DNA of 38,891 bases from Anaerolineales bacterium (lineage in GTDB: Bacteria; Chloroflexota; Anaerolineae; Anaerolineales; Villigracilaceae): contig JADGQC010000007.1 of assembly GCA_017882125.1 (NCBI GenBank), forward strand, positions 1 to 38,891, written 5' to 3'. The notes below the pieces were generated by a model that worked only from the letters and a program-made list of their open reading frames with translations, ran no database searches and was not told the DNA's origin. Shown piece by piece: positions 8,398 to 10,484 of this stretch (the stretch's first letter is position 1; the number at the start of each line of letters is the position of its first letter). The position numbers and the translations under genes were made by a program.

Positions 8398-8919
8398 CTA
8401 TCCGTTCAGTGCAAAGTCGACACGCCCGGGTCGTACCACCAGCATGGGTACATGTATTTCCCCAAATTGCGCCAGCTGAGGGTTGGTAATCTTTACATCA
8501 TAAATGGACATCCAGATAGCGCGCCCGGATGAGATACTCGTGCCAATGTCCACCTGCGTTGAGATTCGGATCGCCCCGTTGAAAGCGAAAGTACCAACCA
8601 GCACCGTTACTGGCTGCATCTTGCGGTTCATTTCGCTTTCATCATAATCCAACGGGTCATGGGCAGGAGGTGTCAGGTGAAAACCAATGATCTGGGCGGT
8701 GGGGACGTATATTTCGGAATAGCTTAGCCCCTTCGCCGTGCTGCCATTTAAAAAGATTACCTGCGGTTTGAGTAAATGGATATACTCCGGCGCACCATCG
8801 GTACGCAGCCACACGCTGACCCGGGTGGTTTGCTTGGTCAAAGTCTCCCCATATATAAGCGTATTGTGGGTATAGATCATTACCCCTGAAGCCTTTTCGT
8901 CGGAAGCAAGTGTATACAT
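8398..8919 (-). CDS. Hypothetical soluble beta-rich protein
   Basis: Unrecognised 173-residue protein. ATG 8919 is preceded by GGAGGAG nine bases upstream, so the start is firm. No signal peptide or membrane helix. The content is beta-rich: an N-terminal block (VMIYTHNTLIYGET) followed by WLRTDGAPEYIHLLKPQVIFLNG, a central VYVPTAQIIGFHL-like strand, and a C-terminal VTVLVGTFAFNGAIRIST plus MSIYDVKITNPQ strand pattern. The repeated 'conserved small-domain' look, with a possible nucleic acid or ligand binding barrel, is only an impression. It is followed by the PD40 gene after 104 bases, so it may be cotranscribed. The unusual structured stretch at 9101-9260 lies in its upstream region. Confidence 0.7.
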   Translation of the reverse strand: MYTLASDEKASGVMIYTHNTLIYGETLTKQTTRVSVWLRTDGAPEYIHLLKPQVIFLNGSTAKGLSYSEIYVPTAQIIGFHLTPPAHDPLDYDESEMNRKMQPVTVLVGTFAFNGAIRISTQVDIGTSISSGRAIWMSIYDVKITNPQLAQFGEIHVPMLVVRPGRVDFALNG

Positions 8920-9038
8920 TTATCATCTCCTCCACCAAAAGCATCTCGGAATATTGCAGGAACAAAAATACATAATGATTCTCCCACACTTTACATATTT
9001 TTAAATGGCGGTTTTATTATCCGCTCTGTCTATACAAC

Positions 9039-9052
9039 CAATTTTAAAATTG
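9039..9052. repeat. 14-bp perfect AT-rich palindrome in the leader region
   Basis: CAATTTTAAAATTG is perfectly self-complementary. It sits in the AT-rich part of the 383-base gap, between the structured element and the gene starting at 8919. It could be a DNA-binding site; its low complexity makes a chance origin quite possible. Confidence 0.3.
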
Positions 9053-9100
9053 TTAGCAAATTTTAATGTAATTTTTAAAAACGCGTTGTATTATGAAATC

Positions 9101-9260
9101 AGGCCGCAACCGGCCTGGAAGGAGGTGTCCACCGAAAACATGGAAGTGAACCCCGTAGGAGGAAAGACCGGGTGATCCAAAACTGGCTCCAGGCTTGCTG
9201 CCTGTGCCAAGCGTCTCCCGACGTACGGTGATTTTTACCTGCTCTTTCCTCTGGATGAAA
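9101..9260. ncRNA. Candidate structured RNA of unknown class (strand unresolved)
   Basis: This GC-rich block lies in the 383-base gap 8920-9302 and is flanked on the low-coordinate side by very AT-rich DNA. A long-range helix pairs 9159-9173 (GAGGAAAGACCGGGU) with 9237-9251 (ACCUGCUCUUUCCUC): 14 of 15 pairs counting one G-U, with one C-C mismatch. It encloses a two-part hairpin, UGGC/GCCA plus CAGGC/GCCUG (9184-9209), and CGUC/GACG (9212-9223). Outside it is AGGCCG-CAAC-CGGCCU (9101-9116). Read on the minus strand the short hairpin has a GGGA (GNRA) loop, while the plus strand keeps one more G-U pair, so the strand is open. On the minus strand it would be a 5' leader of the gene at 8919. I could not match it to a riboswitch or RNA family. 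Confidence 0.5.
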
Positions 9261-9266
9261 TCAATT

Positions 9267-9291
9267 GGCGGATGGATGAACTCCATCCGCC
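9267..9291 (-). terminator. Hairpin terminator after the aminotransferase gene
   Basis: GGCGGATGGA (9267-9276), loop TGAAC, TCCATCCGCC (9282-9291): a perfect 10-bp stem beginning 12 bases after the stop of the minus-strand gene at 9303. The tract after it on the minus strand is only moderately T-rich (AATTGATTT). Confidence 0.7.
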
Positions 9292-9302
9292 TTCATTATT
9301 TA

Positions 9303-10484
9303 TTACTTCAGGGCCGCTTTCATGCGTTCCAGAGCTTCTGCCAGCGTTTTCCGCGGGCAGCCGAAGTTCAGCCTTACGAACCCTTCCCCTCCTAAACCAA
9401 ATTCCTTTCCTTCGTTTAATGCAACTTTCGCTTGCTTCAGGAAATAATCATACGGCGCACCGTTCATCTTCCCACCTCTGATCAGCTCGTTACAGTCCAG
9501 CCACCCCAGGTAGGTTGCCTCCGGGATGGTCACATTTATTCCCCTCAATTCCTTTTTAACAAACTCCACCAGGAAGTCCCTGTTACCCGTCAGGTAGATC
9601 CGCAGGGCCTTCAGCCATTCATCGCACTCGCCTGAAAAGGCTGCCATTGCCGCCGCCAGCCCCATATTATTAACGTGCATACTCATCTGTTCGGTGGTGA
9701 CCTTATAGCGTCTGAGAAGATCGGCATTGGGGATGATCGCAAACCCGCAAAATAGACCTGCCACGTTGAAGGTTTTACTGGGTGCGATCAGGGTAATGGT
9801 TATGTCGGCAATTTCCGGGGATAGGCTTGCGATCGGGATGTGCCGCGCCTCTCCCAGGAGCAATTCGCTGTGGATTTCGTCCGAGCAAATAAAGGTCTCA
9901 TTTTTAAGACAAATTTCGCCCATGCGCAGCAGATCCTCGCGCGAGAAAGCCTGCCCGGTGGGGTTGTGGGGGTTGCAAAGCAGGAACATTCCGGTGTGGG
10001 CATTGCAGCCGTTGAGTTCCTGCTCGAAAACACCGAAATCGACCCGGTACCGCAGGATGTCCCCTTCCACGCTAACTTTGAGCGGAGCTTCCTGGCGGAC
10101 CAGTGCCGCGTTTTTATGCACGGTCAGGAAGGGCGGGTAGACGGGCGGCTGCACCAGGATCCCCTGTCCTTCCGCGCTGATCGTGCGCGCGGCTGCGTTG
10201 AACCCTGCGATCACCCCCGGCGTGGCAACCACCATTTCCGGTGCCACCTTCCAACCGTAGAGTTTCTCCATCCGTATCGCTACGGTTTCACAGAGTTCCC
10301 TTGTGGGGAATTCATACCCATAAATGCGGTCCGTTACAACCGCTCGCAGGGCATCCTGCACAGGTTCCGGCGCGGCGAAATCCATGTCTGCCACCCATAA
10401 CGGCAGGACATCTTCAGGATATTTTTGCCACTTGATCGAATTCGTTTTACGCCGGTCGATTATTTGATCGAAATCGTAAATCAA
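9303..10484 (-). CDS. patB: PatB/MalY-type PLP aminotransferase (C-S beta-lyase)
   Basis: Fold-type I PLP enzyme of 393 residues, the usual length for PatB/MalY cystathionine beta-lyases, which cleave C-S bonds of cystathionine or cysteine conjugates to thiol, pyruvate and ammonia. Typical signatures are WVADMDFAAPEPV near the N-terminus, LLCNPHNPTG (about 168-177), SDEIHSELLL (about 200-209) and the PLP-lysine motif APSKTFNVAGL (about 234-244). The C-terminal arm has FVRLNFGCPRKTL. The start is TTG 10484, six bases after a strong AAGGAGG; no ATG is available nearby. It ends a run of five same-strand genes beginning with threonine synthase, consistent with sulphur/methionine amino acid metabolism. 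Which thiol substrate it prefers cannot be read from sequence. Confidence 0.88.
   Translation of the reverse strand: MIYDFDQIIDRRKTNSIKWQKYPEDVLPLWVADMDFAAPEPVQDALRAVVTDRIYGYEFPTRELCETVAIRMEKLYGWKVAPEMVVATPGVIAGFNAAARTISAEGQGILVQPPVYPPFLTVHKNAALVRQEAPLKVSVEGDILRYRVDFGVFEQELNGCNAHTGMFLLCNPHNPTGQAFSREDLLRMGEICLKNETFICSDEIHSELLLGEARHIPIASLSPEIADITITLIAPSKTFNVAGLFCGFAIIPNADLLRRYKVTTEQMSMHVNNMGLAAAMAAFSGECDEWLKALRIYLTGNRDFLVEFVKKELRGINVTIPEATYLGWLDCNELIRGGKMNGAPYDYFLKQAKVALNEGKEFGLGGEGFVRLNFGCPRKTLAEALERMKAALK

Follow-up and report, generated by a model that had tools for sequence, protein, structure and literature searches.

What is the GC-rich, strongly folding element that lies between genes near position 9,100 of the Anaerolineales contig stretch analysed here (the window; 38,891 nucleotides), and from which strand, if any, would it be expressed? 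GC content is 56% in 9100-9291 compared with 29% in 8940-9095, in agreement with the initial annotation, which had described a GC-rich element in AT-rich surroundings and had placed it at 9101-9260. The element does lie there but is longer: it starts at ~9096-9100 and continues past 9260 to a terminator, for a total of about 200 nt (~9096-9300). The long helix with 14 pairs in 15 positions that had been described (P2) is present in the predicted fold of the plus strand, where GAGGAAAGACCGGGT (9159-9173) pairs with ACCTGCTCTTTCCTC (9237-9251); its irregularities, one C-C mismatch and one G-U, can be seen in the sequence. As had also been noted, P2 encloses two adjoining hairpins, P3 (9184-9209; TGGC...GCCA with inner AGGC/GCCT) and P4 (9212-9223; CGTC-TCCC-GACG). 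A 7-bp hairpin, P1 (CAGGCCG-CAAC-CGGCCTG; 9100-9117, with 9100-9106 paired to 9111-9117), stands 5' of P2 on the plus strand. The plus strand of 9095-9300 has a folding energy of -84.4 kcal/mol (z = -4.91), and none of 200 shuffled sequences was equally stable. The minus strand folds with nearly the same strength (z = -4.45); since both strands fold far beyond their shuffles, folding energy cannot be used to choose between them.

Neither the window nor ten homologue loci reached the gathering threshold of any Rfam family, which is consistent with the earlier proposal of a structured RNA outside known families, and no paper on this RNA was found in the open-licence PMC literature. Only two chance-level Rfam matches occurred in 8900-9400 (E 0.13 and 2.9), and the first of these, to the L20 leader, covers mainly the terminator hairpin. 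tmRNA (RF00023) resembles the element in being a structured RNA with a short open reading frame (ORF) closed by a stop codon. However, neither RF00023 nor ARAGORN gave a match in the window, a separate tmRNA exists in the same genome (G000:C188) and tmRNA is above cut-off in 53/61 genomes, and the RNA described here, in contrast to tmRNA, has a Shine-Dalgarno sequence (SD). An RNase P-like reading of GAGGAAAGACCGGG was also dropped, as P2 pairs and covaries differently. The initial annotation had allowed for the region being part of a repeat or mobile element; this does not hold because the element is single-copy in its own genome and, at blastn sensitivity, absent from plasmid and phage collections.

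Homologues were detected by BLAST in 7/60 related genomes, which included 5/10 of the same genus and two weak matches in the same family. A covariance model (R1) built from eight sequences, namely the window and the BLAST homologues, matched 44/152 genomes of the window's family (E <= 0.01), and a second model (R2) matched 87/400 genomes of the order (E <= 0.001). The set analysed below comprises 102 copies in 96 Anaerolineales genomes, usually one per genome, of which 95 belong to the window's family and one (G336) to another family of the order. When 396 genomes from the class and 400 from the phylum were scanned with R2, 19 genomes matched in each set, all from the window's family, and a pattern scan of public genomes returned 37 contigs, all labelled Anaerolineales, Anaerolineae, Anaerolinea, Chloroflexi or Candidatus Villigracilaceae. 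Absences within the family seem real because 20 match-less members, searched again using a third model under less strict filters, gave only one weak match (G030, E 0.006); the model search did not find the element in complete genomes of the family. If the reading is right, the abundant but little-studied Anaerolineales would gain a new RNA family. Copy counts are lower bounds, as searches over >40 genomes used stricter filters, E-values of the three models (R1-R3) are rough, and the sample consists of MAG assemblies in which close relatives are unevenly represented. Matches that were weak or SD-like only (G002:C2, G036, G110:C147, G379, G090) and one truncated copy (G034:C51:51655, model positions 37-139) were omitted before counting, and G108:C17:5710-5779 (E 0.00125) and G161:C1 are likewise outside the 102. 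A few genomes carry 2-3 copies. In some of them (G113, G109, G114, G110, G111, G034; loci L046-L049, L052, L182) two full copies lie on the same strand ~0.35-1.4 kb apart, mostly with an ORF between them, and G034 has a third, truncated match.

Compensatory changes in relatives, which the initial annotation had named as the check on a structured RNA, are present in P2-P4. Plain sequence alignments analysed with RNAalifold gave double-sided change in 9/29 predicted pairs for eight sequences and in 12/14 for 48 sequences; the consensus energy of the latter is small (-5.3 kcal/mol) because the 48-sequence alignment is imperfect. In the model-fitted alignment of 103 matches, which leans to the structure by construction, 20/21 pairs were doubly changed, and 86.2% of its cells could pair, compared with 76.0% after shuffling (0/500 as high) and 44.6-53.5% when the strands were slid. 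P2-P4 are thus backed by compensatory changes, and the fold appears to be under selection. P1 shows double changes in close relatives (e.g., CAGATCA/TGATCTG) and is absent from many distant copies. In a subset of copies the P4 loop may pair just 3' of the hairpin as a pseudoknot: in the 59/102 copies that could be parsed, the score was 7.50, against 6.96 +/- 0.14 when segments were swapped among copies (0/500), although relatedness could explain this score.

The strand can be read from the signals that flank the fold. The initial annotation had considered a minus-strand location, and this is not supported: a promoter-like sequence, an SD, a conserved ORF and a terminator followed by T-rich DNA all lie on the plus strand. 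A promoter-like TTTAATG-N17-TTGTATTATG occupies 9062-9095 (+) and is conserved upstream of homologues, which share TTTTAATG...TTGTATNATG on the plus strand. TTTAATG occurs within the 95 nt that precede the SD in 83/102 copies and a TTGTA[TA] motif in 58/102; five copies of one genus (G136, G163, G127, G150, G175) have unrelated upstream sequence. Presumably 9062-9095 acts as the promoter; a standard sigma-70 scan made no call there. At the other end, a terminator-like 10-bp hairpin, GGCGGATGG...CCATCCGCC, lies at 9267-9291 (+) and is followed by T-rich DNA, and a hairpin of the CGGATGG...CCATCCG type stands 3' of 85/102 copies. The layout therefore looks like that of an RNA with promoter-like sequence, 5' hairpin, SD, tiny ORF, P2 with its two hairpins and terminator hairpin, and we regard a structured RNA expressed from the plus strand as almost certain on this comparative evidence.

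The exact pattern TTTAATG-N14..19-TTGTATNATG has seven matches in 37 genomes, one per genome and each just 5' of this RNA; the promoter-like form with N17, limited to this RNA in those genomes, may therefore bind a dedicated factor. Likewise, CGGATGG-N3..8-CCATCCG occurs once in the window's own genome (here) and at 0-3 places per genome in the 37 genomes, so that the terminator hairpin sequence is kept across genera and rare elsewhere, which exceeds the needs of a plain terminator.

Could the RNA then be a riboswitch, attenuator or other leader of a neighbouring gene? Many attenuators join a leader ORF, a hairpin and a terminator, and the nearest downstream ORF is co-directional in 20/97 of the copies that have one. 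In the remaining 77/97, however, it lies on the opposite strand, and no conserved co-directional family was found among the 97. A leader role on the minus strand, as had been suggested for the gene at 8919, conflicts with the plus-strand signals, and a relative of that gene was near only 6/102 copies when the two nearest ORFs on each side were considered. A cis-acting leader on either strand is accordingly very unlikely in our view. The gene itself (8398-8919, minus strand) encodes a 173-aa protein without a Pfam match and is near the RNA in a few relatives. A frequent neighbour is an aminotransferase family (PF00155 for its member in the window), which occurs within two ORFs of 55 copies and is the nearest convergent neighbour in 45. 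The place of the RNA is thus conserved and a downstream target is not, and a free-standing RNA is therefore favoured. Other recurring neighbours, which we take to be methyltransferase, thiolase-like and lipoprotein-like genes, were seen, and the two nearest ORFs on each side pointed to no pathway.

Near its 5' end the RNA carries a strong SD (GAAGGAGGT, 9118-9126, +; exact AAAGGAGGT in 77/102 copies), and behind it the family has a tiny ORF. In 81/102 copies an in-frame stop follows after 14-17 codons (TAA 50, TGA 39 and TAG 13 among all ORF stops), and length changes are of whole codons; no ORF of this kind was seen in the other two frames. Deviant cases are one copy that goes out of frame near the end (G115), one with an early stop (G067), 13 with 19-23 codons and one with 32. 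Among 40 disjoint nearest pairs, differences in the first 33 nt were distributed 74/60/119 over codon positions 1/2/3, and the third-position count compares with 84.3 +/- 6.4 under column shuffling (0/2000 as high). Synonymous codon differences numbered 49 against 36.9 +/- 5.3 expected (30/2000), and frames +1 and +2 gave 27 and 29. Ahead of the SD, this frame had no codon-position bias (102/103/97; 31 pairs), so the coding constraint starts after the SD. Judged from these substitution patterns, the tiny ORF is very probably translated.

Typical peptides are IETPPDNSIEGRTGMP, IEVPPKTKTEGKGETP-like and IENMEPKHFRGKNG*, and in the window an ATG-to-TGA ORF (9140-9175, +) with the frame and end of the family ORF encodes MEVNPVGGKTG*. 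The N-terminal motif is conserved (e.g., I-[ED]-T-P-P), Pro-Pro stands at codons 4-5 in 60/102 copies, and the C-terminal residue is Pro (39) or Gly (28) in 67/98. Such ends and Pro-Pro would fit slow elongation or termination, and these features are not universal here. It is possible that the RNA is simply a small structured mRNA, the product being the 11-17 aa peptide, with P2-P4 and the terminator stabilising the transcript and the unusual first codon (see below) setting a low output. The coding-type substitutions, the N-terminal motifs and the missing co-directional gene downstream speak for this; against it, mid-ORF codons vary widely between genera, and the compensatory changes in P2, P3 and P4 exceed what a plain mRNA needs. 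Weighing both sides, we consider a plain mRNA rather unlikely, though still the strongest of the competing explanations.

The family ORF begins at a codon that is rarely AUG and, in most copies, one at which ribosomes seldom start. Codon 1 is ATA in 58, ATC in 27, ATT in 3 and ATG in only 2 of the 102 copies, the others being ACC (4), GTC (4), ACA, GTA, AGT and CAG; AUA, AUC or AUU (AUH) thus make up 88/102, and codon 1 is placed 6 nt after AGGAG in 90/102. G is the final base of codon 1 in 2/89 cases, against 22% at the third positions of codons 2-10. Between nearest pairs this base differs as A/C nine times, A/T once and A/G never, whereas elsewhere A/G is the commonest difference (30/105), and one parsimony reading gives 9-11 ATA/ATC changes and a single ATA to ATG change. 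An ORF with such a near-cognate start would escape gene finders limited to ATG, GTG and TTG.

A more familiar start could lie elsewhere. Within the ORF, ATG, GTG and TTG are all lacking in 43/88 AUH copies. Upstream, 45/88 have one of these codons in frame <=60 nt before codon 1 with no stop between, and translation might begin at a leaderless AUG close to the 5' end of the RNA and read through the SD; in line with this, 56 in-frame ATGs lie 18-48 nt before codon 1, compared with 41 and 32 in the other frames, and 41 of the 56 are open. However, 34 of the 43 placeable in-frame ATGs at -27/-30/-33 begin 2 or 5 nt ahead of the end of a TATNAT-like hexamer; they overlap a -10-like hexamer and would thus be 5' of the expected transcript start. 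Moreover, 37/88 AUH copies have an in-frame stop within the 11 codons before codon 1, and the SD-to-codon-1 offset takes values of 12-15 besides the usual 13, i.e., it varies by non-multiples of three, so that no constant frame runs through the SD. Together with the lack of codon-position bias 5' of the SD, this makes a leaderless start the least credible of the alternatives. As most of the placeable nearby upstream ATGs overlap the hexamer and stops intervene in 37/88 copies, the sequences are most simply read as initiating at the AUH codon. The RNA, its strand, its fold, the ORF and the near-cognate codon are, in our assessment, well supported by the comparison.

A start of this kind has a close parallel in infC, the gene for initiation factor 3 (IF3). 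IF3 genes were found in 36/37 relatives, and among 30 infC loci of the same order, 29 were readable (L226 is unclear); 28 of these 29 start with ATC (17), ATA (8) or ATT (3), and in 21 of the 29 the start is 6 nt after AGGAG, as for codon 1 of the RNA. According to PMC5472188, IF3 represses ATT and ATC starts (infC) and GTC (sigR) in E. coli and Streptomyces, and, apart from infC, few bacterial genes whose conserved start is non-canonical have been characterised. The tiny ORF shares start codon and SD spacing with infC, its initiation site is therefore that of a gene under IF3 control, and by this analogy IF3 would be expected to act on it. We lean towards IF3-sensitive initiation in AUH copies, with little more than even confidence. 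The two cases differ in that infC is long and essential, whereas the ORF here has ~16 codons and lies in a stand-alone structured RNA. The Streptomyces sigR gene offers a second likeness, as PMC5472188 describes a non-canonical start (GTC) conserved to stay weak; however, sigR is an ordinary protein gene, and its control by IF3 is experimental (PMC5472188), whereas for the RNA we infer it. GTC also occurs at codon 1 of four RNA copies, though an AUG follows there. As a separate observation, a GC-rich palindrome-like stretch lies just 5' of infC in several Anaerolineales loci (L198-L227).

The near-perfect SD and a codon that IF3 rejects could also serve as a decoy for 30S subunits, in which initiation complexes are trapped and the short ORF clears those that escape. 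The frequency of the exact SD and the near-absence of AUG at codon 1 would fit, but a pure trap has no need of a conserved frame and stop with third-position bias, copies with AUG exist, and the SD is predicted to be partly paired in the free fold. A decoy is thus improbable. Nor did modelling support the idea that the P2 3' strand, once freed, masks the SD: over 94 modelled copies, mean SD pairing was 0.74 in the free fold and 0.79 with a ribosome at the stop, compared with 0.77 for a control with shuffled P2 3' strand.

The explanation that we prefer, by a modest lean rather than with assurance, is a dual-function, stand-alone small RNA with an infC-type start, whose ORF should be restrained by IF3. 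Conserved signals, fold and terminator as well as an ORF with a coding signature were all observed in sequence. The RNA would have a promoter and a terminator of its own and be transcribed from the plus strand, and its strong SD near the 5' end would serve the tiny ORF, where, in most copies, a well-spaced AUA, AUC or AUU should allow IF3 to hold translation down. The P2 5' strand (9159-9173, +; fold and covariation) coincides with the final codons of the ORF, so P2 has to come apart for a ribosome to arrive at the stop, and disruption of P2 by a translating ribosome follows from this anatomy in the model. Reading to the stop would open P2 and expose P3, P4 and the pyrimidine-rich 3' strand (9237-9251, +; also from fold and covariation). 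If IF3 restrains the ORF and the ribosome opens P2, a loss of initiation fidelity or a shortage of IF3 would then lead to more translation, an altered fold and production of the peptide. SgrS/SgrT is a known dual-function small RNA with a short ORF, and resembles this RNA in standing alone with promoter, structure, terminator and small ORF; the difference is that the ORF described here supplies a strand of the main helix with its end and has a near-cognate start.

More tentatively, the RNA might be a lineage-specific sensor of initiation fidelity, in which unfolding is gated by initiation at the infC-type codon and low IF3 activity is converted into a fold change (and a peptide) that acts in trans; this is a possible extension by analogy that we think less likely than not to hold as a whole. 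Regulation by IF3, an effect in trans and the output of the RNA are all inferred. About 100 structured RNAs appear to have kept AUA, AUC or AUU and avoided AUG over long evolution. If this is true, they would provide an accessible system for the uses of near-cognate initiation and IF3 control outside infC, and the RNA may serve as a readout of the stringency of translation initiation.

Conservation of AUU, AUC, AUA or GUC as the start at SD distance, with AUG avoided, is a property of the family and not of the window copy, which belongs to a minority without a near-cognate codon. Its codon 1 is ACC (9131-9133, +), and an AUG follows three codons later (9140), 14 nt after GGAGG. IF3 control is least expected in this copy because of that ACC and later AUG, and the IF3 reading is correspondingly weakened for its own genome. 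Fourteen copies do not have AU[ACU] at codon 1, and in 13 of them an AUG shares the frame of the conserved end of the ORF. This AUG stands 14-17 nt after GGAGG in 11 copies and at the place of codon 1 (5 nt) in two. The distance of 14-17 nt is suboptimal and may keep initiation weak in these copies as well. By eye, a small hairpin seems possible in the spacer that separates SD and AUG in AUG-type copies (L018, L019 and 9122-9142 of the window; e.g., GTTTC-AGTC-GAAAC in G009), and it would shorten the effective spacing.
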